Source: Methanoculleus bourgensis MS2 (GTDB lineage Archaea > Halobacteriota > Methanomicrobia > Methanomicrobiales > Methanoculleaceae). From it: a stretch of DNA of 64,000 nucleotides. Both the position numbers and the translations under genes were made by a program. The stretch's first letter is position 1. Every line of letters begins with the position of its first letter. Shown here piece by piece: positions 31,963-60,784 of this stretch. Under the pieces are notes generated by a model. It ran no database searches. It was given only the letters and a program-made list of their open reading frames with translations, and had not been told where the DNA came from. The DNA is taken from the NCBI RefSeq assembly GCF_000304355.2, contig NC_018227.2:1736001-1800000 (forward strand), given 5' to 3'.

Positions 31963-32862
31963 ATGGAAGAGATTATATTTGGCATCGGCATTACCGCATT
32001 GGCAGGTGCTCTTGCAACCGTAGCCGGCGCTGCGGAGGATACTGAATCTGATATCGGATCCCAGGGAGACCCGAACTCACAGGTTCAGCTAGCCCCGCAG
32101 ATGGGATATATTCACCGCATTTTCAACAAAGCAGTTGCCGGTGAACCCCCAGCGTACGGTCTCTGGGTTGCATTGGGAGCAGGCCTTGCCTGGGCATTTA
32201 TGGCGATGCAGATAAACCCGATTCTTGCAATCGTACTCGGGAGCGCTCTTGCGGTCTTCGTGCAGGGCGTTTATGCGACAACCGCATATCTCGGTCGTAC
32301 TGCAAGTCTCGCCAAGTTCGAACAGCCGGTCTACATCGATATCTTAAAGTCGATGACGACCGTGACCATGGCACACGCGTTTGTAGCGATCTTTGCCACC
32401 GTCGCGATGTGTCACCTGATCATCAGCGCACTCGGCCACCCCTTCCCGCTCCCACTGCTGGGTCTTGTTTGGGGTATCGCGCTCGGTGCAGCCGGATCTG
32501 CAACCGGTAACCCGTTCTACGGAAAGGAGCGGCAGTACCAGGAGCAGAAGTTCGGAGCCGGAGTCCCGATCTCCGCGTCCGGTAACATCGTCCGCTACGC
32601 CGAGGCCGGCCAACGGAACTCGCTCGACAACGGTTTCTTCAGCGCCAAACTCGGCGGCCCCGCGTCGGGTATCTGTTTCGGCCTGATCGTCTTCTTCGAA
32701 CTCTGGCGTACCGTGGTCTTCGAGCCGCTCGCCGCCGGATGGGGAGCGGTCATCGTCGGCGTCATCGTGATCCTGATCTTTGCCATCATCGACCGCTACA
32801 TCGAGGTCTGGGCAAGGAAGACTTTCGGCCCCTACGTGGCCCCTGAGGAGGCATCATCATGA
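31963..32862 (+). CDS. mtrE: Methyl-H4MPT:coenzyme M methyltransferase subunit E
   Basis: An integral membrane subunit of the Mtr complex, which moves methyl from tetrahydromethanopterin to coenzyme M while exporting Na+. The 299-residue protein starts with a hydrophobic segment (IIFGIGITALAGALATVAGA) and contains PNSQVQLAPQMGYIHRIFNK and several further membrane spans. It is the first gene of mtrEDCBAF-(A/G)-H. Its stop overlaps the mtrD start in an ATGA. Confidence 0.96.
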   Translation: MEEIIFGIGITALAGALATVAGAAEDTESDIGSQGDPNSQVQLAPQMGYIHRIFNKAVAGEPPAYGLWVALGAGLAWAFMAMQINPILAIVLGSALAVFVQGVYATTAYLGRTASLAKFEQPVYIDILKSMTTVTMAHAFVAIFATVAMCHLIISALGHPFPLPLLGLVWGIALGAAGSATGNPFYGKERQYQEQKFGAGVPISASGNIVRYAEAGQRNSLDNGFFSAKLGGPASGICFGLIVFFELWRTVVFEPLAAGWGAVIVGVIVILIFAIIDRYIEVWARKTFGPYVAPEEASS

Positions 32863-33710: not shown

Positions 33711-34562
33711 ATGTCGGTAAAAATTGAAGTCGGAGCAGGTGGCATTCCACACAACCAGATCGTGATCTACGGTCTCGTGGGGTCGCTTGTCCTCATCTAC
33801 CTGACATACCTGAACCAGGTCACCGGCACCGAGTACTTCGCATTCTTCGGCGGACTGGCCTGCGTGGTCGCGCTCCTCTGGGGTGCCGACACGATCAAGC
33901 ATCTCTGCAGCTACGGTCTTGGTACCGGTGTTCCGTCGGCAGGTATGATCGCGCTCGGGTCTGGTGTTATCGCCGCGCTCTTCGGAGCCACGACCGGCGT
34001 GTTTGCACCAATCGTTGCGCTCATCGTCGCTGCGATCATCGGTGCGGTCTCCGGGTTGCTGGCCAACCATGTGGTCAGGATGGATATTCCGGTCATGGTT
34101 ATCTCGCTGACGGAGCTTGCGATTGTCGGTGCGATAACGGTGCTCGGCCTCGTTGCCATGGTCGGCGGAACGTTCAACTTCCTGGACCTGGTCACCGGCA
34201 CGACCGTCATCCTCGGATTCGCTGTACAGAGCTACGAAGCCTCCGTCATCGGTGGTAGCATCGTTGCCGTGATCTTCATGCTTTCTGCAATCGCGATCCA
34301 GCACGCGTTCAACGCCTGCCTTGGACCCGGGGAGCAGCAGGACCGGACGCTCATGCTCGCCGCAGAGTGCGGGTTCCTCTCCATGATCCCGGTTGCGGTT
34401 ATGTCGTTCGCGTTCATCGCGTTCATCCCGGCTCTCATATCGCTGCTGGTCTCGGTCATCGGGTGGGCTTACACCTACGCTGAGTACATCAAGCTCTCGA
34501 AGCGTGACGCCTACGCCTGGCTTGACGCGAAGCCGATCCTGGAGCCCAAGGGAGGTGCCTAG
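33711..34562 (+). CDS. mtrC: Methyl-H4MPT:coenzyme M methyltransferase subunit C
   Basis: A polytopic membrane subunit of Mtr, 283 residues. It begins MSVKIEVGAGGIPHNQIVIYG, then has about seven hydrophobic helices, the loop GADTIKHLCSYGLGTGVPSAG and the C-terminal AFNACLGPGEQQDRTLMLA. Together with MtrD and MtrE it is placed in the ion-translocating membrane globe. No gap separates it from mtrD or mtrB, so translation is probably coupled. Confidence 0.95.
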   Translation: MSVKIEVGAGGIPHNQIVIYGLVGSLVLIYLTYLNQVTGTEYFAFFGGLACVVALLWGADTIKHLCSYGLGTGVPSAGMIALGSGVIAALFGATTGVFAPIVALIVAAIIGAVSGLLANHVVRMDIPVMVISLTELAIVGAITVLGLVAMVGGTFNFLDLVTGTTVILGFAVQSYEASVIGGSIVAVIFMLSAIAIQHAFNACLGPGEQQDRTLMLAAECGFLSMIPVAVMSFAFIAFIPALISLLVSVIGWAYTYAEYIKLSKRDAYAWLDAKPILEPKGGA

Positions 34563-34847
34563 ATGGCATACATTCAGGTACTGCCCGAGTACGGGCTGGT
34601 CGTTGACCCGATGGTCGGTGTTGTTACCACCGCCGGCGTCTCGTACACCCCCGTGATCGAGCAGGTAGCAGAACTTGAGAAGATCACTGACGATCTGGTC
34701 GGCATGCTCTCCGGGGAGGGCAACTTCCTTGCGTCGTTCCCGAACAGGGATGGGGTCCTCAAGATCGCTGGAGGCGTGACCGCATTCTGGTATGGCATGG
34801 CAGTCGGTCTTCTGGTTGCCGGTGTCATCGCATTAGGACTGCTGTGA
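34563..34847 (+). CDS. mtrB: Methyl-H4MPT:coenzyme M methyltransferase subunit B
   Basis: A small Mtr subunit of 94 residues with one C-terminal membrane helix ([17 protein letters not shown]). The soluble part starts [20 protein letters not shown] and includes [20 protein letters not shown]. It begins directly after the mtrC stop, and mtrA follows after a ten-base gap with a GGTGA ribosome site. Confidence 0.93.
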
Positions 34848-34853
34848 GGTGAA

Positions 34854-35327
34854 TAACATGGTTGAGAAGAAATCACCGGCCAGTGGATGGCCGATAGTTC
34901 AGGGCGACTTCCATACAGGAGATGCACAGAGTTGCGTCGGCGTCGTCACCATGGGATCCCACCTCGACGAACAGGGCATCTGTGATGCCGGAGCGGCTAT
35001 TGCCGGGTCCTGCAAGACCGAGAACCTGGGTATCGAGAAGATCATCGCAAACGTGATCTCAAACCCCAACATCCGGTTCATTCTCTGTTGCGGCACTGAG
35101 GTCAAGGGTCACCTTTCCGGCCAGAGTTTCATCGCGCTGCATGCCGGCGGTGTCTCCGGCGGGAAGATCGTCGGGGCCCAGGGTGCGATCCCGTTCATCG
35201 AGAACCTCTCCGACGAAGCGATCAAGCGCTTCCAGGACCAGGTCGAGATGGTCAACATCATGGAAAGCGAGGATATGGGCACCATCAAGGCCAAGATCGA
35301 TGAACTCAAGGCCAAAGACCCCGGTGC
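34854..35327 (+). repeat. Near-identical direct repeat of the mtrA corrinoid domain, copy 1
   Basis: This 474-base segment, from four bases before the mtrA ATG to codon 157, matches 35799-36272 base for base apart from one silent change (35214). Outside it the two genes diverge abruptly at both ends. Confidence 0.93.
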
Positions 35328-35583
35328 ATTCCCCGCAGAACCCATGATCGTCGAGGTCAAGGAAGCAGGCGGTGCCGGCGCTGAAGAGGTAAGCGGCGAA
35401 GTACAGCCGCTCTCCGGCGAACTGGCACTGGTACATGCACGGATGAAGATCATCGAGCAGATGGTCACGGACATCGGCTACCGCAACAGGTTTGCCGCCG
35501 GTGTCTACTCGGGCAAGATCGAGGGTCTCATGATCGGCCTGATCGTCTCGTTCGTGATTCTGGGATTCATCTTGCTGGGGTGA
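34858..35583 (+). CDS. mtrA: Methyl-H4MPT:coenzyme M methyltransferase subunit A (corrinoid), canonical copy
   Basis: MtrA carries the corrinoid that accepts the methyl group from MtrH and hands it to coenzyme M. The 241-residue protein has an N-terminal cobamide domain ([50 protein letters not shown]). His85 aligns with the corrinoid-coordinating histidine. A variable linker is followed by the usual C-terminal part, [17 protein letters not shown], and one membrane helix. Bases 34854-35327 recur with a single mismatch at 35799-36272 in the second mtrA copy. Confidence 0.96.
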
Positions 35584-35588
35584 TATAG

Positions 35589-35801
35589 ATGGCAGAAGAA
35601 GGTATACAGACAGCAGGCCCCATCCGGATGACAGCAATCAACAGAATGATGGACTCCATCCGGTACAAGGCACAGATCCTTGCCCGCACGACCAAACTCG
35701 AATCAGGTATTATGGGCTCGGGGATCCTCGGGTTCGCAGCCGGGATCATCGTCGCCATGCTCCTGATCGTGATTCCGGTACTGATACTGGGGATGATCTA
35801 A
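35589..35801 (+). CDS. mtrF: Methyl-H4MPT:coenzyme M methyltransferase subunit F
   Basis: A 70-residue subunit with a short soluble segment ([20 protein letters not shown]) and one C-terminal membrane helix ([20 protein letters not shown]). MtrF is known to resemble the C-terminal part of MtrA, and this pattern is visible against the canonical MtrA tail. It lies five bases after mtrA and one base before the mtrA-mtrG fusion. In other methanogens mtrG would follow directly. Confidence 0.9.
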
Positions 35802-36272
35802 CATGGTTGAGAAGAAATCACCGGCCAGTGGATGGCCGATAGTTCAGGGCGACTTCCATACAGGAGATGCACAGAGTTGCGTCGGCGTCGTCACCATGGG
35901 ATCCCACCTCGACGAACAGGGCATCTGTGATGCCGGAGCGGCTATTGCCGGGTCCTGCAAGACCGAGAACCTGGGTATCGAGAAGATCATCGCAAACGTG
36001 ATCTCAAACCCCAACATCCGGTTCATTCTCTGTTGCGGCACTGAGGTCAAGGGTCACCTTTCCGGCCAGAGTTTCATCGCGCTGCATGCCGGCGGTGTCT
36101 CCGGCGGGAAGATCGTCGGGGCCCAGGGTGCGATCCCGTTCATCGAGAACCTCTCCGATGAAGCGATCAAGCGCTTCCAGGACCAGGTCGAGATGGTCAA
36201 CATCATGGAAAGCGAGGATATGGGCACCATCAAGGCCAAGATCGATGAACTCAAGGCCAAAGACCCCGGTGC
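35799..36272 (+). repeat. Near-identical direct repeat of the mtrA corrinoid domain, copy 2
   Basis: Second copy of the 474-base repeat, offset by 945 bases from the first. It spans the mtrF stop, the start codon and codons 1-157 of the fusion gene. Homologous recombination between the copies would delete mtrF. Confidence 0.93.
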
Positions 36273-36543
36273 GTTCCCCGAAGAGCCTATGATCGTCGAG
36301 GTCAAGGAGGCGGGCGGCGGTGCGGCGGAAGTAGCCGTTGCAGGCGTAAACCCACAGTTCCTTGAGATCGAGGAGCGGCTCAACGCTATCGAGGAGAGGA
36401 TCGAGTTCGTCGATGCTGAGATGGCCCAGCGCGTCGGAAGGAAAGTAGGGCGCGATATCGGCATCCTGTACGGACTGGTTGCAGGTTTAATTGTATTCAT
36501 GATGTTGTTGATGTTACTGCCCAAATTGATTGGGTTCCTGTAA
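35803..36543 (+). CDS. MtrA-MtrG fusion: second corrinoid domain joined to the MtrG subunit
   Basis: A 246-residue chimera. Residues 1-157 are identical to the canonical MtrA corrinoid domain, including His85. After a short Ala/Gly linker, residues ~184-246 are Mtr[20 protein letters not shown], then [18 protein letters not shown] and a single membrane helix. No separate mtrG exists in the operon, so this gene must supply MtrG. The product would place an extra corrinoid domain at the MtrG position of the complex. Start and ribosome region are partly shared with the repeat, and the preceding stop (TAAC-ATG) is one base away. The sequence is high quality over the join: frame and codon use are normal. 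Confidence 0.9.
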
Positions 36544-36558
36544 GGAGGATTGACGAAT

Positions 36559-37596
36559 ATGTTCAAGTTCGAAAAAGAACAGACGGTACACGACTTCAAT
36601 GGTACCATGATCGGCGGGCAGCCTGGAGAGTACCCGACCGTGCTCGGTGCATCCATCTTCTACAACAAGCACGAGGTTGTGCTGGATGACCACACCGGAA
36701 AGATCGACAAGCCCACGGCAGAGGCGCTCTGGAACCGCTGCCAGGAACTTTCGGATATCACCGGCATTCCACACTTTATCCAGATCATCGCGGAGTATCC
36801 TGAGGCCTTCGATAGCTACATCGACTGGTTCTGTAGCATCGATGACAAGACAGCGTTCCTGATGGACTCTTCCGTCCCGACGGCGCTTGCTCACGCATGC
36901 GAGTACGTCACCGAGGCTGGTGTTGCGGACCGTGCGATCTACAACTCGATCAACGGCTCGATCATACCCGAGAACATCGAGGCGCTGGCCAAGAGCGACG
37001 TGACTGCCGCGATTGTCCTGGCCTTCAACCCTGCCGACCCGTCGGTCGCCGGCCGTGAGAAGGTTCTGGTCGAGGGCGGCGTCGCTGGTCAGGAGCTCGG
37101 GATGCTCGAGATCGCGGAGAAGTGCGGCATCACCCGCCCGATCCTCGATACCGCGGCGACCCCGCTCGGTCTTGGGTCCGGCGGATCATACCGTGAGATT
37201 CTCGCCTGCAAGGCAATCCACGGCCAGCCGACCGGCGGTGCATACCACAACATGACGGTCTCCTGGACCTGGCTGAAGCGGTGGAAGGGAACGAAGAAGG
37301 TTCCCTCACAGCAGCTGGCCGGCCTCGAGGGCAAGGATGCCCTTGTCGAGCAGCTCACGCGCCACTATCTCGGCGGTACGGACGGACTGCGCCAGGCGGC
37401 CTGGTCCGCACCTGATATCGGATGCAACATGATTGCAAGCACGCTCGGTGCAGACCTGATCATGTACGGCCCGATCGAGAACGTCGAGGCGATGATCACC
37501 GCACAGGCCTATGTCGACATCGTTGTGCTGGAAGCAGTGCGCGATCTCGGTATCGAGCCCAAGGTGGACACCCACCCGCTGTTTAAACTCGTCTAA
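36559..37596 (+). CDS. mtrH: Methyl-H4MPT:coenzyme M methyltransferase subunit H
   Basis: MtrH is the peripheral subunit that transfers the methyl group from methyl-tetrahydromethanopterin to the MtrA corrinoid. The 345-residue protein is a TIM-barrel methyltransferase with MFKFEKEQTVHDFNGTMIGG, IYNSINGSIIPENIEAL, ILDTAATPLGLGSGG and ADLIMYGPIENVEAM. GGAGG at 36543-36547 and the family N-terminus support the ATG at 36559; a TTG at 36550 is the alternative. It is the last mtr gene and is followed by a T8 run. Confidence 0.96.
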   Translation: MFKFEKEQTVHDFNGTMIGGQPGEYPTVLGASIFYNKHEVVLDDHTGKIDKPTAEALWNRCQELSDITGIPHFIQIIAEYPEAFDSYIDWFCSIDDKTAFLMDSSVPTALAHACEYVTEAGVADRAIYNSINGSIIPENIEALAKSDVTAAIVLAFNPADPSVAGREKVLVEGGVAGQELGMLEIAEKCGITRPILDTAATPLGLGSGGSYREILACKAIHGQPTGGAYHNMTVSWTWLKRWKGTKKVPSQQLAGLEGKDALVEQLTRHYLGGTDGLRQAAWSAPDIGCNMIASTLGADLIMYGPIENVEAMITAQAYVDIVVLEAVRDLGIEPKVDTHPLFKLV

Positions 37597-37613: not shown

Positions 37614-37809
37614 GTCGCCCGGTTCTCGCCGTGGCTGACCAGTTTTTGCGTGGAAACACCTTTCTGCAGGGACACCGTCCTCTGCGTGATCGCGCGCCGG
37701 AAAACCGGGCGAACCGGATGACTACTGATCATTGCATCTACTATTTCCACGCGATTGTTGCGTCACGCGGGAGGGCGCGAAGACTGAGCGGTACATGCTG
37801 GCAACTTCA

Positions 37810-37894
37810 CTTCGCGACTTCGCGTCCTTTGCGTGATGCTCTATTTCCTCCCTGTACCGGCTCCCTCACGCAGAAGTGCGCGAAGGACGCGAAG
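37810..37894. repeat. TTCGCG-rich hairpin repeat, copy 2
   Basis: CTTCGCGACTTCGCG at the left and CGCGAAGGACGCGAAG at the right can pair across a core that includes CCCTGTACCGG. It belongs to the dispersed hairpin family; the orientation is inverted relative to copy 1. Confidence 0.7.
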
Positions 37895-37918
37895 TTTGGT
37901 AATGGGTGTAAACAGTCC

Positions 37919-38003
37919 CCTTCGCGTCTTCGCGGCCTTCGCGTGAGGCCTTGTTCGGTACCCCCTGTACATTACCTCTCGCGTTGCCGGGAAGTTCGCG
38001 AAG
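37919..38003. repeat. TTCGCG-rich hairpin repeat, copy 3
   Basis: CCTTCGCGTCTTCGCGGCC at the left and GAAGTTCGCGAAG at the right flank a core with GGTACCCCCTGTAC. It lies 24 bases after copy 2 in the mtrH-GTPase gap. Confidence 0.65.
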
Positions 38004-38050
38004 TCCGGGGGGCATGAGTCGCCTCCCTTTCGCGATCTTCGGGCAACGCG

Positions 38051-38116
38051 AGCGACTGGCGATCCTCCTCACACACCAAAACCCTCAAAATGAGATGCCT
38101 CAGTCCACTAACGTGA
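38051..38116 (+). repeat. 65-bp dispersed intergenic repeat, copy 1
   Basis: Contains GCGATCCTCCTCACACACC and AAAACCCTCAAAATGAGATG, a pattern seen at four other intergenic sites in the window (42880, 57170, 61024 and 61102). The gap 37597-38216 holds this, two hairpins, an AT-rich promoter region (38130-38190) and no credible gene. Confidence 0.6.
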
Positions 38117-41245: not shown

Positions 41246-41440
41246 CGTTGCAGTCTCCTCACTCCTAGACGGAATGCAGAGACCATTAACCTTCTTTTGC
41301 TGCATCAGGTGAAGGAGCCCCTCCCCCCTACTGCCGGAACGCCTGGAGCTCGACCACCGCTAGTGCCGAGTCAATCATTCAACGTCGGGTATGGGCGTGC
41401 TAGTGCTTGTTGTCATCTTCAACGTAGAGATCTCCTGTCC

Positions 41441-41513
41441 CTCTTCGCGACCTCACGCGTGAGATGTTGGTGCTCTCTAGTATCCCTCACGCGAAGACGC
41501 GAAGACGCGAAGG
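41441..41513. repeat. TTCGCG-rich hairpin repeat, copy 4 (inside the inverted-repeat element)
   Basis: TCTTCGCGACCTCACGCG at the left and CACGCGAAGACGCGAAG at the right. Absent from the shorter element copy at 60557. Confidence 0.6.
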
Positions 41514-41536
41514 GCGTTGCAGGTACCCAAGACCAA

Positions 41537-41619
41537 TCTTCGCGCGCTTCGCGCACTTCTGCGTGAGTTTTCAGTACAGGGGGGTGATCGAGCCTCTCGC
41601 GCTCTCGCGCGAAGGGGCG
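41537..41619. repeat. TTCGCG-rich hairpin repeat, copy 5 (inside the inverted-repeat element)
   Basis: CTTCGCGCGCTTCGCGC then a core GTTTTCAGTACAGGGGGG and CTCTCGCGCGAAG. The core matches copies 1, 6 and 7. Confidence 0.68.
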
Positions 41620-41879
41620 TTGCATTTCACGCCTCAAAATCTTCAAAATAACGTGACACGATGCACTATTGCGACAATTCGTCGTTGACTTGGCACTAGC
41701 CTCGCGGCGCCCGGGCCGGTCGCCAATCGCATCGGAGGGGATCTCCGGGGGTCCTGTGACTGTCAGAGGGCGGTGGTTCTGGAAGCCCCCGATCCCCCTG
41801 GGTCGCCTGCATTACCCCCCAACACACCCCTGCGGGACCAGGCTTAAAAAAGAACCGGAGTTCTTCTCTCTCCCGCCGC

Positions 41880-43243: not shown

Positions 43244-44233
43244 ATGGATTTTAACAAAGTAAAGTTAATTTTGCTATACACTATGCGGAGAACGGCGTCG
43301 ATCACGATCCTGGCACTCACCGGTATACTTCTTGCCAGCATGGCCTGTGCAGTCACTCTCGGTCCGGCCAGTATATCTCTCGGATCCCTGTTTGCGCTGC
43401 CCAATGCATGGAAGATCTTCTGGGATGTCAGGCTGCCGCGGGTGATTGCCGCGGTGCTGGTCGGGTGCGCGCTTGCCGTGGCGGGCACAGCCATGCAGGG
43501 GCTGTTCCGGAACTCCATGGCCGATCCCTACATCATCGGCACGTCATCCGGGGGGGCGCTCGGGGCCACACTCTCGATCGTCCTCTTCGCGGGCACAGGG
43601 CGACCGGTCTTCGCATTCATAGGGGCGACGGTCGCCACCTTCACCGTCTACACCATCGCCCGCCAGGGCGGGAAGGTTCCGGTCGAGACACTCCTGCTCT
43701 CCGGCGTCGCCCTCTCCATGCTGCTCTCAGCGTTTCTCTCGTTTCTCATGTACACCGCGGGGAAAAGCCTCCACCAGATCATGTTCTGGCTGATGGGCGG
43801 GTTCTGGAACGTCTCGTGGGATGACGTCCGCATCGCCATCCTCATCCCGATCGGGTGTCTGGTCATCTACCTCTACGCTCGCGATATCAACATCATATCG
43901 CTCGGGGAAGAGGACGCGATCCACCTCGGCGTGAACGTCGAGCGGTTGAAACAGCTCCTCCTCTTTGCGAGCGCCTTCCTGACCGGAATAGCGGTCTCGA
44001 TCGCGGGGGCGATCGGGTTCATCGGCCTGATCACTCCGCACGTGATGCGCCTGATCGTCGGGCCCGACCACCGCATCCTCCTTCCTGCGGCCGCGCTTGC
44101 GGGAGGGATCCTCCTCCTCTGGTCTGATACGCTCACAAGGACGTTTGCCGGAGACATGCCGGTCGGGATCATCACCGCCTGTTTCGGGGCACCGTTCTTC
44201 ATATACCTCCTGCGGAGCCGGATGAAAGCATGA
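43244..44233 (+). CDS. btuC: BtuC/FecCD-family ABC permease (cobalamin/corrinoid or iron-chelate)
   Basis: The membrane subunit of a type II ABC importer, 329 residues, about ten helices. Family landmarks are RLPRVIAAVLVGCALAVAG, GTAMQGLFRNSMADPYIIG, WLMGGFWNVSWDDV and GAIGFIGLITPHVMRLIVGP, which holds the ATPase-coupling helix. Cobalamin and siderophore permeases look alike; the B12 call leans on the neighbouring transcobalamin-like surface proteins. Two starts are possible: ATG 43244 or ATG 43283. A TTAAC-8-GTTAA inverted repeat at 43251-43268 falls between them, which would favour 43283 if it is an operator. The stop overlaps btuD in an ATGA. Confidence 0.82.
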   Translation: MDFNKVKLILLYTMRRTASITILALTGILLASMACAVTLGPASISLGSLFALPNAWKIFWDVRLPRVIAAVLVGCALAVAGTAMQGLFRNSMADPYIIGTSSGGALGATLSIVLFAGTGRPVFAFIGATVATFTVYTIARQGGKVPVETLLLSGVALSMLLSAFLSFLMYTAGKSLHQIMFWLMGGFWNVSWDDVRIAILIPIGCLVIYLYARDINIISLGEEDAIHLGVNVERLKQLLLFASAFLTGIAVSIAGAIGFIGLITPHVMRLIVGPDHRILLPAAALAGGILLLWSDTLTRTFAGDMPVGIITACFGAPFFIYLLRSRMKA

Positions 44234-45474
44234 AACCAGTCGAAGTCATCGGTATCGACGTCTCTTACGGCGCAAAGAAGGTCCTCGAAGCAATCTCACT
44301 GCATGTGGAGAGAGGCGAGATCCTTGGGATTATCGGGCCGAACGGGTCGGGGAAGACGACGCTCATCAAGGCGATGAGCCGGATAGTCGCCCCGGAGAAT
44401 GGGGAGGTCCATCTCAATGACCGGAACCTGGATTTTTTCAGTTTCCGTGAACTGGCTCAGCAGGTCGCTGTCGTGCCGCAGGAGATCTCGATCGGTTTCG
44501 ATTACACCGTGCGCGATATCGTCATGATGGGAAGGCATCCCTACATCGGAAGGCTCTCCTCCGGGACCGCCCGGGATCTGGAGGTCTGCGACCGCGCCAT
44601 GCACCTCGCAAACGTCGCATACCTCGCCGACTCATCGGTCAACGAGATCAGCGGCGGCGAGCGGCAGCGGGTGTTCATCGCCCGGGCGCTCGCGCAGGAA
44701 CCGAAGATCCTGCTCCTCGACGAGGCGACCTCAAACCTCGATATCAGTCACCGGATCGAGATCTTAAACATCATCAGGAGTCTCACCGACGAGATCACGG
44801 TGATCAGCGTCTTCCATGACCTGAACCTGGCTGCCTACTACTGCGACCGCCTGATCATGCTGAAAGACCGGCAGGTGTTTGCCGTCGGGGAACCCCGGGA
44901 TGTGCTGACGCAGGAGACGCTCAATGCGGTATATGGGATCGACATCCTGGTAAAAACCCACCCCCTGACTGGCAAACCCTATATCCTCCCGGTGTATGGG
45001 CATACCGCAGACCATCAACCGGAAGAGGGTGTGCACGTCATATGCGGCGGGGGCACGGGGTCAGACCTCCTCTACGCCCTCCACAGGGAGGGGTTCAGGG
45101 TGAGCGCAGGCGTGCTCAATCTGTTAGATACCGATTATGCGGCCGCGACAGCGCTGGGTATCCCCTGCGTTACCGAGGCGCCGTTTGCCGCGATCTCTCC
45201 GGACGCCCGCGATAACCTCAGACGGTGCGTCGATGCCGCGTGTGCGGTCGTCGTCACGGCCATGCCCATCGGGCAGGGCAACATCGAGAATATCAGGATA
45301 CTGAAGGGCTACCGTGACAAGCCCATCATACTCCTCTGCGGCGGCGCGAACCCGTCCTTCCAGGACTACGTCGGGGGAGAGGCCGAAGCGATCATTCGCG
45401 AACTGCTTGACCGGGGTGCGGTCACGGCGGGGCGGATCGATGAGGTCCTGCAGGTCCTCAAACGGATGGAGTGA
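44230..45474 (+). CDS. btuD: BtuD-type ABC ATPase with extra C-terminal domain
   Basis: The ATPase partner of the permease, 414 residues. The ABC core (1-255) has Walker A GIIGPNGSGKTTLIKA, signature NEISGGERQRVFIARAL, Walker B ILLLDEATSNLD and VISVFHDLNLAAYYCDR. Residues ~265-414 are an added Rossmann-like domain (VHVICGGGTGSDLLYALHRE, GVLNLLDTDYAAATALGIPC, PIILLCGGANPSFQDYVGG), a length and layout seen in other archaeal BtuD proteins. Its role, possibly ligand sensing, is unknown. Confidence 0.82.
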   Translation: MKPVEVIGIDVSYGAKKVLEAISLHVERGEILGIIGPNGSGKTTLIKAMSRIVAPENGEVHLNDRNLDFFSFRELAQQVAVVPQEISIGFDYTVRDIVMMGRHPYIGRLSSGTARDLEVCDRAMHLANVAYLADSSVNEISGGERQRVFIARALAQEPKILLLDEATSNLDISHRIEILNIIRSLTDEITVISVFHDLNLAAYYCDRLIMLKDRQVFAVGEPRDVLTQETLNAVYGIDILVKTHPLTGKPYILPVYGHTADHQPEEGVHVICGGGTGSDLLYALHREGFRVSAGVLNLLDTDYAAATALGIPCVTEAPFAAISPDARDNLRRCVDAACAVVVTAMPIGQGNIENIRILKGYRDKPIILLCGGANPSFQDYVGGEAEAIIRELLDRGAVTAGRIDEVLQVLKRME

Positions 45475-45534
45475 CCGCCGGGAGCACCTCCAGGGTCAGT
45501 CGTCGCCCCTCCAAAGGCCTGGATCTGAAAGGAG

Positions 45535-45542
45535 TTTTTTTT
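45535..45542 (+). terminator. T8 terminator after btuD
   Basis: Eight T residues 60 bases after the btuD stop. This separates the transporter genes from the convergent small gene and from the surface-protein genes downstream. Confidence 0.5.
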
Positions 45543-45646
45543 CCGTTCCGGTCGTGGTGGGTACCGTCACGGGAGGTGGAGACAGGGGAGAGAGCCTCCT
45601 CCCTGAAAAAGGAAGGCGCGCAAAAAAAGCGGAGAAGAGATCGCAA

Positions 45647-45829
45647 TCAGACCTCGTAGGCCACGAGCGATAGCCCCAGGTCCTTCTCGAGATCCTGGAT
45701 TCGCTTGAGGTCGTTCTCGCTCAGCTTCGCATACACCGGTTTTGCATACGCAAGGATCGTCACACCTAACTCCTCCTCACAGCGCTGCACCCGTTTCACC
45801 TGCTCAGATGTCAGGCTCGCATATCCCAT
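45647..45829 (-). CDS. Small protein made of two copies of one ~26-residue unit
   Basis: A 60-residue protein that I do not recognise. It is an internal duplication: YASLTSEQVKRVQRCEEELG followed by VTILAY, then YAKLSENDLKRIQDLEKDLG followed by LSLVAY. Each half looks like helix-turn-strand. A start at 45838 would add three residues. The repeat structure makes a real gene much more likely than chance. It is convergent with btuD. The rest of the gap to 46241 has no gene that I can support; overlapping frames of 95 (minus) and ~50 (plus) codons at 45843-46130 look equally weak. Confidence 0.65.
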   Translation of the reverse strand: MGYASLTSEQVKRVQRCEEELGVTILAYAKPVYAKLSENDLKRIQDLEKDLGLSLVAYEV

Positions 45830-46179
45830 AGAGATCATGGTTCTAACTCCGGGTCACAATGATCACGGGGCATATTATAGGTTGCGGGGTCACTCCCCTC
45901 ACTGGTGGAGAGGAGCATTGAGAGATCCAGGTGTTGCCCCGGTTATTTAGAGCAAAAACGTCATCTTTGAAGACGAGCCCCGGTCGGGCGCGATGGAAGA
46001 CTTCACCGGAGGGGATGCGCGTGCGCTCCTGGATGAACTGGATGCGCGCGGTGCCGCCCGGGTCAGGGGACTGGAAGATATTGTAGCGCGCCTTGCCTTG
46101 CTGTAGCCCGAATGGACCCGGAATCGCCAATAGGAGGGCGTTGCCGTGCCGGCATATTCTTGCAATAGGGCAAATCCAT

Positions 46180-46225
46180 TTTAGTTAACTAAAGATGAAT
46201 TTGTAAAGTTTTATTACTTTAAATA
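46180..46225 (+). promoter_or_regulatory. Palindromic operator and TATA box before the DUF4430 surface protein
   Basis: A perfect 14-base palindrome TTTAGTTAACTAAA (46180-46193) lies 24 bases before a TATA-like TTTAAATA (46218-46225), which is 17 bases before the ATG at 46242. The mRNA would be nearly leaderless. The GTTAA half-site also appears around the btuC start. Confidence 0.55.
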
Positions 46226-46241
46226 AAGTCTAATTGTACAT

Positions 46242-49200
46242 ATGAGATCGAGACTGCCACCAATCTTTGTTGGGCTTATCATGCTCTCACTCCTGCTTGT
46301 CGGGGTGGCGAGCGCATCATATCCAATGTTTCACCACGACCAGCAGCGGATCGGCTATGTTCCCGGAGAGGGGCCGCAGACGAACGCCACCCTCTGGGTG
46401 GCAGAGACCGCCGAATATGCCGACGGTTCGCCGGCGGTACATAACGGAAAGGTCTTCGTCCCGACCTGGCCGGATATGAACTTCGATGAAACCAACCCGA
46501 TGGGGCTTGTCTGTTACGACGCCGCCACCGGGGTGGAGCTCTGGACGAACGAACTCGGCGGCGCCGACGTCGGTTCGGTCTCGGGCGTTGCCATCGCTGA
46601 CGGTCAGGTCTACCTCGGCGGGACCGACGGGCGGCTCTACTGCGTCGATGAAGCAACGGGGGAGACGCTCTGGGCGAGCGACCGGATCGATGCCACCGGC
46701 TATTTCGGGCTCTCGTCCTCGCCCCTCGTTTACGAAGGAACGGTCTACGCCCTCTCGGCTTCAGACGGCGTGCTGCATGCCTTCAACCCCGATGGCACCG
46801 TGGCATGGATCTTTGAGACTGGCAATGGTGTGCTGTACTTCACCTCCCCCGCAGGCTACGATGGAAAGATCTACTGCGCAGGGAACAGGAGCCAGATCTT
46901 CTGCATCGATCCTGCAACGCAGAGCGCCGTCTGGACCTTCAATCAGGGGGGGTCGGTGAAGTCTTCGCCGGTCATCGGTGAGGATGGGACCGTCTATTTT
47001 ACTACCAACTCGCGGTGCTATGCCCTCGACGGCACCACAGGCACGGAGCGATGGAACAGTTTCGTGACCGGGACGGCGGCGACCCCCGCCCTTGCCAACG
47101 GGTATATCTATGCAGGGGCCTCCGATGGACTCCACTGCCTTGATGCGTCGACCGGTGAGGAAAAATGGCACTTCCCGGCAAAAGAGGTAAACGTTGCACC
47201 GGTCGTGGCCGGCAACCTCGTCTACGCCGCGACCAACGAGGAGACCGGAACCTTGTATGCGGTGGACGCCGGGACCGGCGAACCGGTCTGGTCATACACC
47301 CTTAAGGCCGCGGGTGACGGCACGTTTGCCGCGTTCTTTGCCTCCTCGCCTGCGGTATCGGACGGCGTGCTCTACATCGGTGCCGAGAACAACCGCTTCT
47401 ACGCCTTCGGGGAAGGAGAGGTGCCGGGACCTGTGTTTACCGGATGGAGCGGATCGGTCAGCCTGGCAGATGGCCAGACCTTCACGGTCACCCCATTCAA
47501 CAACGATAGCGCCAGGTATACGATCAACCGGACCTCGGCGCTCGGGGTGCTCGATGCCGCCGCAACAAAAGGCGGTTTCAACTACACCGTCCTGGAGAGG
47601 GAATGGGGCACGTTCCTCTACTCCATCGGCGGTATCGCCTACAATGAGACTTCCGGGGACTCCTGGGTCTATTCGGTCAACGGGGTGCCCGCCGAGGTTG
47701 GGGCAGCAGACTACTCCCTCGCCGACGGCGACGTCATCACCTACTGGTACGGCGCATGGGGATCGACACCCGAGACCGCCGATGCGGTGGTCACCATCAC
47801 TGTCTCCATCCCGGCACCGCCTGCCCCGGTACCCGCGCTATGGAACGGGACCGTAGTCCTGACAAAAGGAGAGACCTTCCAGTTCGTCCCCTCGAATAAC
47901 GCCTCCGCCTCGTACACGGTCAACCGCACCACCGACCTCGGTGCTCTCGATGCCGCCGCAGTTAGCGGGAACTTCACCTTCAACACCTCTGACTCCTGGT
48001 ACGCCTCCTACGGGTCATTCCTGCTCGAAGATATCGCCGGCATTGCAAACGAGGACTGGACGCAGGAGAACGCGCGGTCCTGGAGCATCTTCATCAACGG
48101 TGCGGCGGCACCCGCAGGGTTCGGTGCAAACTCTCTCGCCGACGGCGACCGGCTCGCCTTTTACTACTGCCCCTCGGATCCGGTCACCTGGGCGCCGCTC
48201 ATTGACCGGGCTGAGTACGCCGTCACCATCGACGTCACCGTCCGCGATTTCTCATGGGAAGGAACGGTTAGCTTGGCGGATGGTCAGACCTTCCAGGTCA
48301 CCCCGTTCAACAACGCGAGCGCGACCTACACCGTCAACCGGACCTCAGCCCTCGGGGCGCTCGATGTAGCGGCGAGCACAGGAGGGTTCGATTACACCGT
48401 CCAGGAGACCGCCTGGGGTTCGTTCCTTTATTCCATCGGCGATATCGCCTACAACGAGACCTCCTGGGACTCCTGGCTCTATTCGGTCAACGGGATGCCC
48501 GCTGAAGTCGGGGCCGCGGACTTCTCCCTCACCGACGGTGACGTCGTCACCTACTGGTACGGCGCCTGGGGATCGAGCCCTGAGACTGCCCGTGCGGTGG
48601 TCAATATCACCGTCTCCATCCCGAAACCAGGGAGCGGCGGTGGTGGCGAAGATGACTGCGGCGATTCCCCATCCCCCTGGATCACCGTCACCCTCAATCC
48701 CGGGACGTTCACCCTCGCCGCAGATAACAGCAAAAAAACCTATGATGTCAACCGGCAGACAGCCCTCGGGGCGCTGGATGCAGCTGGAGTTGGGTATACC
48801 GTCGACGACACTTATTACCAGGATTACGGATCGCTCTTTATCGACTCCATCAAGGGAAGAAAGAACGACGGAGCAAAGGGCTGGATGTACCAGGTGAACG
48901 GCGAAAGCCCCGGTGTCGGTGCCAATACGTACACGGTCAAGGACGGCGATAACGTCGTCTTCTTCTGGAGTGAGAGTATGAGTTCGACCCCGGCGACCTC
49001 TCCGGATGTCGTCTCCATCAAGGTCGTGATCCCGGGGTCATCCGGTGGTTCTGGCTCCGATTCATCAGGTAGCGGGGGCTCCAGCTCAACGGGCACCGCT
49101 TCAGGCAGCGGGCAACAGGACGGCAGTGAGCCGGGACCTGCGTCGTTCCTCCTCAGATTACCGGCCGGAGCCACCGTCGAGCTCGGGGAGTGGGGCCAGA

Positions 49201-50000
49201 CCTTCTCGGTCGACACCACCGGTCCGGCCGCAGTCGGGGAGGAGGTCATCATATCAGGAAACACCCTCACGGTCAACCGGAGCGGCCTCGTGCTGACCAT
49301 CGCCGCCAGGAACATCAACGAGAAGGACGGCGTGGCCAGCGGCCTCATCGAGAGCGTCACCGCGGCAATCAACCCGATCTCCAGAGAGATCGAGGGCATG
49401 GGGGCCGTAGCCGCTTCACTGGTCCTCAACCTCACCGGTATCCCGGCGGCTGACGGTCGGCTCGATATCGCCTTCAACGCCACCCCGGATGCAACAGCAG
49501 AAAGGGCTTTCACTCTTGCTGCCGCAGAGAAGAATGAAGAGATCACTGCTCTTGCCTACACTGTGACTGTCACGCGAACCAACCTGGAGAATGGTGAAGA
49601 TATCGCCGGAGCAGTGATCCGGATGACCATAAGCCCCGGGTGGGTGGAAGAGCACGGCGGCGTGGGTGCCCTCAGGATCGCTCGATCTTCAGAGGACGGC
49701 ACATACCGGATACTCGATACCCGGGTTGCCGGGACCGATGAGAGCGGGAACCTGATCGTTGAGGCGACCTCACCCGGCGGCCTCTCGGTCTTCGGCCTGC
49801 TGGCGGTCAAGGCGGCACCTCCGGCACGGGACACCCTGGCGACCGCCGTAACCTCTGCGGTCTCTGATACGCCCGCTGCAGCAGAAACGCCTGCAGGAGC
49901 ATCCCCGTCTCTCTCATCACCGCTCATCATTGCCGGGGTGAGTGCGGTCCTGCTTATCGGGGCGGTATATCTCGTCGTCAAGCGAAGGAGACAACCATGA
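46242..50000 (+). CDS. Giant surface protein: PQQ-type propeller plus four transcobalamin-like (DUF4430) domains
   Basis: A 1252-residue exported protein. Signal peptide MRSRLPPIFVGLIMLSLLLV is followed by a PQQ/YVTN-type beta-propeller (about 28-395; CYDAATGVELWTNELGG, CIDPATQSAVWTF, LYAVDAGTGEPVWSY). Four repeats of ~125 residues follow at about 400-528, 530-665, 668-800 and 810-930. Each has a TVNRTSALGALDAA-like helix, a G-(S/T)FL-SI-GI segment, SW-YSVNG and L-DGD-ITYWYGAW. This is the pattern of DUF4430, the fold of the transcobalamin/intrinsic-factor C-terminal domain. A Gly/Ser linker, a ~220-residue region and a C-terminal membrane helix with KRRRQP complete it. The stop overlaps the next gene by four bases (ATGA). 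Corrinoid binding is inference from fold and neighbours. Confidence 0.78.
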   Translation: MRSRLPPIFVGLIMLSLLLVGVASASYPMFHHDQQRIGYVPGEGPQTNATLWVAETAEYADGSPAVHNGKVFVPTWPDMNFDETNPMGLVCYDAATGVELWTNELGGADVGSVSGVAIADGQVYLGGTDGRLYCVDEATGETLWASDRIDATGYFGLSSSPLVYEGTVYALSASDGVLHAFNPDGTVAWIFETGNGVLYFTSPAGYDGKIYCAGNRSQIFCIDPATQSAVWTFNQGGSVKSSPVIGEDGTVYFTTNSRCYALDGTTGTERWNSFVTGTAATPALANGYIYAGASDGLHCLDASTGEEKWHFPAKEVNVAPVVAGNLVYAATNEETGTLYAVDAGTGEPVWSYTLKAAGDGTFAAFFASSPAVSDGVLYIGAENNRFYAFGEGEVPGPVFTGWSGSVSLADGQTFTVTPFNNDSARYTINRTSALGVLDAAATKGGFNYTVLEREWGTFLYSIGGIAYNETSGDSWVYSVNGVPAEVGAADYSLADGDVITYWYGAWGSTPETADAVVTITVSIPAPPAPVPALWNGTVVLTKGETFQFVPSNNASASYTVNRTTDLGALDAAAVSGNFTFNTSDSWYASYGSFLLEDIAGIANEDWTQENARSWSIFINGAAAPAGFGANSLADGDRLAFYYCPSDPVTWAPLIDRAEYAVTIDVTVRDFSWEGTVSLADGQTFQVTPFNNASATYTVNRTSALGALDVAASTGGFDYTVQETAWGSFLYSIGDIAYNETSWDSWLYSVNGMPAEVGAADFSLTDGDVVTYWYGAWGSSPETARAVVNITVSIPKPGSGGGGEDDCGDSPSPWITVTLNPGTFTLAADNSKKTYDVNRQTALGALDAAGVGYTVDDTYYQDYGSLFIDSIKGRKNDGAKGWMYQVNGESPGVGANTYTVKDGDNVVFFWSESMSSTPATSPDVVSIKVVIPGSSGGSGSDSSGSGGSSSTGTASGSGQQDGSEPGPASFLLRLPAGATVELGEWGQTFSVDTTGPAAVGEEVIISGNTLTVNRSGLVLTIAARNINEKDGVASGLIESVTAAINPISREIEGMGAVAASLVLNLTGIPAADGRLDIAFNATPDATAERAFTLAAAEKNEEITALAYTVTVTRTNLENGEDIAGAVIRMTISPGWVEEHGGVGALRIARSSEDGTYRILDTRVAGTDESGNLIVEATSPGGLSVFGLLAVKAAPPARDTLATAVTSAVSDTPAAAETPAGASPSLSSPLIIAGVSAVLLIGAVYLVVKRRRQP

Positions 50001-51967
50001 AACACGGAATCAGTATCCTGCTCATCCTCCTGCTCTGCATAGCCTCGTGCGTAGCCTACCCCATGGATCCGGGTGACCCGGCCATCCAGGCCTCCCTGGA
50101 CTACCTCCGCGACTGCCAGAAGAGTGATGGCGGTTTCGGGGAAGCAGGGCGCGAGAGCAGTCCCGGCACATCCTCGTGGACGATCATGGCAGCCGTCGCT
50201 GCAGGCGAAGACCCGCGGGGATGGGTAAAGAACGGTAACTCGACCATCGACTACCTCCGGTCGATGAATGACGATATTCTAGCAAAAGGAGGGACCGTCG
50301 ATATCGCGCGCACGATCCTGACGCTGGTAGCGGTCGAAGAAGATCCCCGTGCCTTATGCGGGACCGATTACGTCGCGGAACTGAAATCGCGGGTGAAACC
50401 CAGCGGCCAGGCGGGAGACCACGTCTTCACGACCATCTGGACGATCATTGCCCTCGCTTCGGTCGGAGAAGAGACCGATGCATCGGCCGCATGGCTGGCA
50501 TCCCAGCAGAATGCAGACGGAGGCTTCCCCTGGACGCCGGGTGCCGAGAGCGACCCGGACGATACGGGCGCCGCACTTGAGGCGCTCGCGGCGGCGGGCA
50601 TCTCCCACGACGCGGCCGCGGTGCAGAACGCTCTCGCGTACTTGAAGGGGATGCAGCAGGAGGACGGCGGTTTCCACTACGGGGGAACGAGCGCTACAAA
50701 CTCTGCATCTGATTCCTGGGTCATCCAGGGTATTGTTGCCGCAGGAGGCAACCCTGCAGAGTGGAGAGCGGATAAGACGAGTGTGGTTGACCACCTCATC
50801 GGCCTGCAGAATCCCGACGGTTCGTTCCGCCATACCACCTACGTGACCGACAACCCCTGTGGGATGACGGCAAGTGCAGTCCCTGCACTCCTCGGAAAAC
50901 CCTACCCGGTGACCCCTTCAGAAACTCTACCGCTGTCACCCGCCACACCCGCACCGCACGTCACGACCACTGCCCCGACCGCAACACCAGCCCGAACCCC
51001 CGCTCCGGCGGCAACAGGCACCGGTGGGGGGACCGTGACGGTGACTGACGATTTTGGGGAGACAGTCACCATCCGGGGAATACCGCAGAGGATCGTCTCG
51101 CTTGCACCCTCCAACACCGAGATCCTGTATGACCTTGGTCTTGAGGACCGGATCGTCGGTATCACCGACTACTGTAACTATCCGCCGGCAGCCGCTGATA
51201 AACCAAAAGTCGGCGGATACAGTACTATCAGTATCGAGCGGGTGCTCGCGGCCGATCCCGATCTGGTCTTTGCCGCGCTTGGCAACACCGAAGACGTGGT
51301 CAACCGCCTGCGATCCCTCGGGATGACCGTCGTCTCACTCAACCCGGAGACGATCAACGATGTCCTGCATGACATCGAACTTGTCGGTGCTGCCACCGGG
51401 CAGGAAGAGCAGGCAGCGGCGTGCGTGAAGGAACTCCGGGCCCGCATCCAGGCAGTGACCGAAAAGACGGAGGGCCTGACAGAGAAGCCTTCGGTCGCCC
51501 ATGTCATCTGGTACGACCCGATCTGGGTCAGCGGCAAGGGGACGTTCCAGGACGAGGTGATCACGATGACCGGCGGTGTCAATGCGTTCGGTTCGGTCGA
51601 GGGATGGAGCATCATCGGCCTTGAAGAGTTCCTCACCTCAGATCCGGAGTACATCCTCGTCAGTTCTGGCACCGGCATGGGCGAGGGGGGGTATGATATC
51701 GTCTATGACTACTTCATGAACGAGCCCAGGATGCAGCAGCTCGATGCGGTCAGGAACGGCCATGTCTACGTCATCGACGCCGATATCATCAGCAGGGGAA
51801 GCCCGCGGATCGTGGATGCGCTGGAAGAGGTGGCGGGAGATCTCCACCCTGACCTCTTTGGAACGAGCGTCCCGGACACAACCCCCGTAGCACAGTCCCC
51901 GGGTTTCGGCGTGATCGCGCTTATCTGTGCGTTCTTCGCTGTCTTCCTGATCAGGGTGAAAAGGTAG
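49997..51967 (+). CDS. Alpha/alpha-barrel domain fused to BtuF-like periplasmic binding domain, PGF-type anchor
   Basis: A 656-residue exported protein. After a signal peptide (GISILLILLLCIASCVAYP), residues ~20-305 form an alpha/alpha toroid with four Q-x-DG-F repeats (QKSDGGFGE, QQNADGGFPW, QQEDGGFHYG, QNPDGSFRH), as in prenyltransferase/terpenoid-cyclase-like and transcobalamin alpha domains. A Thr/Pro linker leads to a class III solute-binding domain (~348-620: RIVSLAPSNTEILYDLGLED, VVSLNPETINDVLHDIE, WYDPIWVSGKGTFQDEVI) like BtuF. The tail is SPGFGVIALICAFF plus KR, a PGF-CTERM-like anchor. It would capture substrate outside the membrane and feed the BtuCD pair encoded upstream. Confidence 0.8.
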   Translation: MKHGISILLILLLCIASCVAYPMDPGDPAIQASLDYLRDCQKSDGGFGEAGRESSPGTSSWTIMAAVAAGEDPRGWVKNGNSTIDYLRSMNDDILAKGGTVDIARTILTLVAVEEDPRALCGTDYVAELKSRVKPSGQAGDHVFTTIWTIIALASVGEETDASAAWLASQQNADGGFPWTPGAESDPDDTGAALEALAAAGISHDAAAVQNALAYLKGMQQEDGGFHYGGTSATNSASDSWVIQGIVAAGGNPAEWRADKTSVVDHLIGLQNPDGSFRHTTYVTDNPCGMTASAVPALLGKPYPVTPSETLPLSPATPAPHVTTTAPTATPARTPAPAATGTGGGTVTVTDDFGETVTIRGIPQRIVSLAPSNTEILYDLGLEDRIVGITDYCNYPPAAADKPKVGGYSTISIERVLAADPDLVFAALGNTEDVVNRLRSLGMTVVSLNPETINDVLHDIELVGAATGQEEQAAACVKELRARIQAVTEKTEGLTEKPSVAHVIWYDPIWVSGKGTFQDEVITMTGGVNAFGSVEGWSIIGLEEFLTSDPEYILVSSGTGMGEGGYDIVYDYFMNEPRMQQLDAVRNGHVYVIDADIISRGSPRIVDALEEVAGDLHPDLFGTSVPDTTPVAQSPGFGVIALICAFFAVFLIRVKR

Positions 51968-54247: not shown

Positions 54248-55033
54248 TTATACGAGCAGCAGGGCCAAATACCCTGCGACGAGAAGCCCCATACAGCAGA
54301 TCCCGGCGATATCAGCCCTGCCCGGAGAGAGGTCGCGCATCGGCGTCCGCATACCGGAGCGGTAGCCCCGCAGGTCGATGGTCAGCCCGAGGATTGTGGC
54401 TTTCCCGAGGGAGTTTGCGACCAGCGGAATGAGGATGGGAAAGAGGCCCCGGACCTTGCCGGCAGGCCCCCTCCCCGGGTTGTAGGCGCGGGCGAGTTGC
54501 GCCTCGTGGATCCGTTTCCCCTCAAGCTGCAGGCTCGGGATGAACCGGAGCGCTATCAGGAACATGAGCGTGTAGTCCACCGGCATCCGGAGGCGGTCCA
54601 TGACATGGACCAGGTCGCGCGGCTGGGTGGATATGACCAGGACCTGGAAGGTAAAGATCATCGCCGCAAACCGGAGCGACATCGCAAGCGCCAGGTCGAC
54701 CGCCCCTGCCGTGACCGGGAAGGCCCCGCCGATGACCGGGACCGCTGATGGGACCAGGTAGCCGAGGGTCTCCCCGCTCTGAATGGTCAGCACCGTGAGG
54801 ATGAGCAGGCTTGCCGCAAGCATGAGGAGCAGCGGCACCTGGCGGAGGAGGTCGCGGGCAAGCCCCGCAATAGCCGCTGCTGCCAGAACCGCCCCCACAA
54901 GAGCCGCGAGCATCACGGTATCGCTCGTCAGCACCGCGAGGGCCACGACGACGACGGCAAAGATCAGTTTGGTGAACGGGTGGAGGCGGTGAAAGGCGCT
55001 CTCCCGGGTGACGTACTGCATAATCTCGGGCAT
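54248..55033 (-). CDS. ecfT: ECF transporter transmembrane component EcfT
   Basis: The T component that couples ATPase to substrate-binding S component in energy-coupling-factor vitamin and metal importers. The 261-residue protein has HRLHPFTKLIFAVVVVALAV at the N-terminus, LMFLIALRFIPSLQLEGKRI and the coupling motif EAQLARAYNPGRG; a typical second ARG-type motif is RGYRSGMRTPMR. The ATG lies inside the ATPase gene just after a GAGGAGG, so the reading frames overlap by 70 bases. Confidence 0.85.
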   Translation of the reverse strand: MPEIMQYVTRESAFHRLHPFTKLIFAVVVVALAVLTSDTVMLAALVGAVLAAAAIAGLARDLLRQVPLLLMLAASLLILTVLTIQSGETLGYLVPSAVPVIGGAFPVTAGAVDLALAMSLRFAAMIFTFQVLVISTQPRDLVHVMDRLRMPVDYTLMFLIALRFIPSLQLEGKRIHEAQLARAYNPGRGPAGKVRGLFPILIPLVANSLGKATILGLTIDLRGYRSGMRTPMRDLSPGRADIAGICCMGLLVAGYLALLLV

Positions 55034-60556: not shown

Positions 60557-60784
60557 CTATTGCCGGGTCAATCACTAAGCGTCGGATAGAGTGGGCGTGC
60601 TAGTGCTCGTTGTCATCTTAAACCCAAAAATCCGACGTCACCTTCGCGATCTTCCGCGTGAGGTTGTAGCGGGCTCCCCGTCTTCATATGTGGCAATTGG
60701 CATTCCACCTCGTGCATCGAAATCTTCAAAATAAAGTGACACGATGCACTATTGCGACAATTTGTCGTTGACCTGGCACTGGTG
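60557..60784. mobile_element. 228-bp non-coding element with terminal inverted repeats, copy 2
   Basis: Left end ACTATTGCCGGGTCAA and right end TTGACCTGGCACTGGT are imperfect inverted repeats (13 of 16). Internal blocks GGGCGTGCTAGTGCTCGTTG (60593 on) and TGACACGATGCACTATTGCG (60737 on) align with the 341-bp element at 41360, but the central hairpins are missing. Confidence 0.62.

Follow-up and report, generated by a model that had tools for sequence, protein, structure and literature searches.

MtrA-MtrG fusion in the mtr operon of Methanoculleus bourgensis MS2, an order-wide arrangement of Methanomicrobiales with a second corrinoid domain kept like the first by gene conversion

The window analysed here, a 64,000-nucleotide stretch of the Methanoculleus bourgensis MS2 genome, contains an mtr operon with the gene order mtrE, D, C, B, A-1, F, A-2-G fusion and H (Table 1). 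The fusion gene follows mtrF and precedes mtrH, downstream of mtrA-1, which is the position of mtrA-2b in Methanomicrobiales, and the host belongs to this order, its nearest named records being Methanoculleus at 93-96% identity, in agreement with the genus lineage. The canonical mtrA-1 scores 341.8 bits against NCBIfam TIGR01111 (cut-off 249), and both parts of the fusion have strong Pfam matches (PF04208, 8.3e-85 for MtrA and PF04210, 1.2e-22 for MtrG). Profile searches of the single-contig genome (2,789,774 bases) returned only two MtrA matches, mtrA-1 and the fusion, and no second MtrG above the cut-off, the fusion being the sole match, which bears out the suggestion of the first-pass annotation that the fusion replaces a separate mtrG. 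A weak MtrG-like match in a frame of ~80 amino acids (G000:C1:1331345-1331473; E 0.05, 15 bits) fell under the cut-off and was rejected as MtrG; the same ~80-aa match recurs throughout the genus, at 15-17 bits and E about 0.03.

Table 1 Features of the window discussed in the text, with positions counted from its first base.
Feature	Position	Strand	Evidence or remark
mtrE	31963..32862	+	first operon gene; Pfam PF04206, 1.7e-128
mtrC	33711..34562	+	Pfam PF04211, 4.6e-69
mtrB	34563..34847	+	Pfam PF05440, 7.2e-31
Repeat copy 1	34854..35327	+	474 bases, one mismatch to copy 2; homogenised by gene conversion
mtrA-1	34858..35583	+	canonical MtrA: corrinoid domain, linker, own stalk/transmembrane helix; Pfam PF04208, 1.6e-84
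mtrF	35589..35801	+	free 70-aa frame; Pfam PF09472, 1.6e-22
Repeat copy 2	35799..36272	+	474 bases, one mismatch to copy 1
mtrA-2b	35803..36543	+	MtrA-MtrG fusion, 246 aa; PF04208 residues 4-172, PF04210 residues 185-237
MtrG part of fusion	36355..36513	+	stalk and transmembrane helix; profile match at G000:C1:1772355-1772513; PDB 9qtq_S, 8q3v_G
mtrH	36562..37596	+	Pfam PF02007, 3.3e-97
FecCD permease	43244-44233		candidate corrinoid-uptake cluster
ABC ATPase	44230-45474		candidate corrinoid-uptake cluster
1252-aa protein	46242-50000		PQQ-type beta-propeller and four DUF4430 domains
656-aa protein	49997-51967		prenyltransferase-type alpha-alpha toroid and BtuF-like Peripla_BP_2 domain
CbiQ-type cobalt transport protein	54248-55033	-	near candidate corrinoid-uptake cluster

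The two mtrA domains lie in a direct repeat that was compared at an offset of 945. The sole mismatch, at 35214/36159, is a silent change (GAC/GAT), and identity begins 4 bases ahead of each ATG (34858 and 35803). From 35328 mismatches build up, the copies are unrelated past about 35390, and copy 2 passes in frame from MtrA into MtrG. The repeat with its abrupt change to MtrG, as first noticed by a model reader, is thus exact in its coordinates by both sequence comparison and Pfam.

Elsewhere in the window, a possible corrinoid-uptake cluster extends over 43244-51967. The combination of toroid and DUF4430 domains among its products resembles the two halves of transcobalamin/intrinsic factor. 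Further, the spacer 3' of mtrH (about 37730-38110) holds a dispersed repeat of the type TTCGCG..CCTT.GCGTGA and, when used as a query, gave 88 matching stretches in this genome; more copies occur at 41392-41697 and 60592-60780, one example being 82 bases at 87% identity. Neither Rfam matches nor tRNAs were found within the window.

To place the fusion in its order, the mtr locus was taken from 80 relatives, giving 76 complete pairs of MtrA domains including that of the window, while the loci outside these pairs are partial, ended by contig ends or an N run. MtrG was matched in 127 of the 135 Methanomicrobiales genomes, and in every relative locus whose contig reaches far enough it forms the tail of an MtrA domain, with no free MtrG in the loci of the 80 relatives or in the window. 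In the other families of the phylum, among the matches listed, MtrG is a separate protein encoded by a frame of about 73-143 aa. The eight order drafts lacking an MtrG match have no MtrA match, or mostly MtrA pieces ending at contig ends, and were rejected as exceptions since their assemblies lack the mtr locus or break within it. One locus (L124, on G116:C2) that seemed to hold two mtrA copies with internal truncations was likewise discarded, an N run lying inside the domain, and the contigs of two further genomes (G113:C26 and G115:C1) stop inside the repeat. The mtrA repeat is often a break point or N run in short-read assemblies, and because it breaks them, drafts may falsely seem to be devoid of mtrA or mtrG.

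Near-identical repeats are also a classic cause of misassembly, and several drafts break exactly there, as would be expected if a collapsed or duplicated mtrA had been misjoined to mtrG. However, the identical join is present in independently assembled relatives, many of them single-contig and with divergent flanks on both sides, and the domains of the most diverged pairs are only 79-84% identical and therefore not assembler-made copies, so that an artefact has a negligible probability and is ruled out by the loci of the 80 relatives. The MtrA-MtrG fusion is the normal arrangement throughout the order Methanomicrobiales. The first-pass annotation had not regarded it as standard for Mtr and had proposed looking for it in other members of the order; it turns out to be fixed there, in relatives without a normal free mtrG, and to have been published in 2015.

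Within genomes, the two MtrA domains have a median identity of 96.3% (range 79-100%, 76 pairs), often exceeding that to the best orthologue, and in the window the respective values are 0.984 versus 0.915-0.926, a likeness of the kind described for mtrA-2b. In a DNA tree of MtrA domains the window copies are a sister pair (support 100/100), as are the copies of 53 of the 76 pairs, mostly with full support; the remaining pairs fall inside small groups of close species, and a single clade of all fusion copies is rejected (p-AU 1.8e-41). Upstream of the ATG identity falls to background, and it also declines in codons 150-173. The converted tract starts at the start codon and ends in the flexible linker, and hence covers the shared corrinoid domain only. 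Recurrent conversion keeps the corrinoid domains alike and each tail distinct. This is in line with earlier work: mtrA-2b was described as an mtrA-mtrG fusion of Methanomicrobiales whose likeness to mtrA-1 is upheld by long-lasting conversion (Wang et al. 2015, PMC4632066; their data set includes M. bourgensis MS2), and a later survey names mtrA as one of 26 genes showing long-lasting concerted evolution (PMC6053082).

The grouping of paralogues by species in the domain tree could also be read to mean that duplication and fusion happened recently and separately in every species. Junction, position and MtrG tail are, however, conserved in every genus sampled and the linker is alignable; in several groups the two copies predate the separation of the species (e.g. 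L102/L130, L120-L122/L142 and L099/L138); and both published studies concluded on one old event with conversion (PMC4632066, PMC6053082), which makes separate events highly improbable. The near identity had at first been ascribed to either a very recent event or ongoing conversion: conversion holds, and a recent event is contradicted by the order-wide distribution. As this distribution shows, mtrA was duplicated in the order's ancestor and the corrinoid domain of the copy was joined to mtrG, the order of these steps being our reconstruction. With considerable confidence, we regard the mtr operon of the window as the ancestral Methanomicrobiales form, with an old fusion, conversion and, most likely, two carriers per protomer.

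In methanogenesis, Mtr links the transfer of methyl groups to the pumping of sodium, and each of the two solved complexes has a single corrinoid domain in every protomer; a whole order that keeps two such domains, both under selection, raises the question of what the second carrier does. Across all 76 pairs, Lys53, Thr54, Glu55, Asn56, Asn65 and His85 do not vary in either copy. Glu55 and His85 correspond to Glu54 and His84 of the literature, where the cobalt-ligand histidine, its glutamate partner and the cobamide-tail residues are described (PMC4915002), and both window copies have the cobalt-ligand His85, the Glu55 relay and the GAIPF meander at 109. In the 11 most diverged pairs, taken as the set in which conversion has lapsed, dS is 0.7-1.2 and dN/dS (omega) 0.06-0.12, which indicates that each domain is under separate selection. 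Judged from these rates, conversion by itself cannot account for the constraint, and the copies are constrained separately. Such purifying selection means that both domains matter; it does not imply turnover of both.

Adjacent direct repeats undergoing conversion could passively carry functional residues, and M. mazei and M. marburgensis work with a single MtrA domain per protomer, so the second domain might be a spare or a poor binder of cobamide, alike to the first through nearness and conversion, with only the MtrG helix being of importance. We consider this unlikely, as pairs that escaped conversion (dS about 1) still have an omega of about 0.1, with the cobalt-ligand residues of the fusion copy invariant, the arrangement persists order-wide, and Methanococcales and Methanocella arvoryzae independently acquired an analogous mtrA-mtrF fusion, mtrA-2a (PMC4632066).

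With two constrained domains, both most likely bear cobamide and carry methyl between MtrH and the MtrCDE sodium-pumping globe. An AlphaFold model of the fusion, of modest confidence (mean pLDDT 62), has an alpha/beta domain followed by a disordered linker (158-190) and then a single long helix (184-245). The MtrG part aligns to the stalk subunit of M. mazei (9qtq_S) and M. marburgensis (8q3v_G) from MtrG residue 8 or 18, and the corrinoid domain therefore replaces only the short N-terminal extension. In the solved complexes the MtrA and MtrG helices adjoin in the stalk, the soluble domain of MtrA swings on a flexible linker and each protomer bears an MtrH dimer (PMC10998594, PMC12774963); a second carrier on MtrG is therefore sterically reasonable. 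The MtrABFG stalk protomer would then tether two carriers, one by the MtrA helix and one by the MtrG helix, giving six per trimeric complex rather than three, and the MtrG-borne carrier would be methylated and turn over. Because the authors of the M. mazei structure regard binding of MtrA by the membrane-distal MtrH as unlikely (PMC12774963), the second carrier may compete for one site instead of adding capacity. The doubled methyl-carrying capacity suggested at first pass is plausible and helped by the conservation of both domains; biochemical or structural support was not found, as the literature search gave no Mtr structure, proteomics or cobamide stoichiometry for Methanomicrobiales and no proteomic paper on Mtr of M. 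bourgensis. More tentatively, Mtr could be a two-carrier machine in which the MtrA- and MtrG-tethered domains alternate, with six active corrinoids and a coupling cycle unlike that of the solved structures. It is conceivable, at a similarly speculative level, that one carrier would be at MtrH when the other is at the MtrCDE cavity, or that each would serve one MtrH of the dimer.

Compared with canonical Mtr of M. marburgensis (8Q3V, PMC10998594) and M. mazei (9QTQ, PMC12774963), the complex encoded here has the same subunits, a tethered MtrA domain and an MtrG stalk helix, whereas in those complexes MtrG is free (72-86 aa) and each protomer has a single corrinoid domain. The mtrA-2a fusion shares with the present one a second corrinoid domain on another stalk subunit that is kept like mtrA-1 (PMC4632066), but it is joined to MtrF, which in M. 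bourgensis is free, and the window operon is thus not of the A-F type. In another order, most likely Methanocellales, three of the four genomes, from two genera (G156, G171 and G177; loci L225, L223 and L224), have MtrF in frames of ~250 aa beside two MtrA matches. By these matches the A-F fusion may occur beyond the one Methanocella species for which it was reported in 2015, which would be a small extension. The published mtrA-2b fusion has the same genes and junction as the one described here and the same place in the operon, its MtrA domain is likewise near-identical to mtrA-1 and subject to conversion, and there is no difference in kind; both fusion and conversion have been known since 2015 (PMC4632066). 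To that description we add a much larger number of genomes, an estimate of the selection on both domains, the invariance of the cobalt-ligand residues and the mapped ends of the converted tract.
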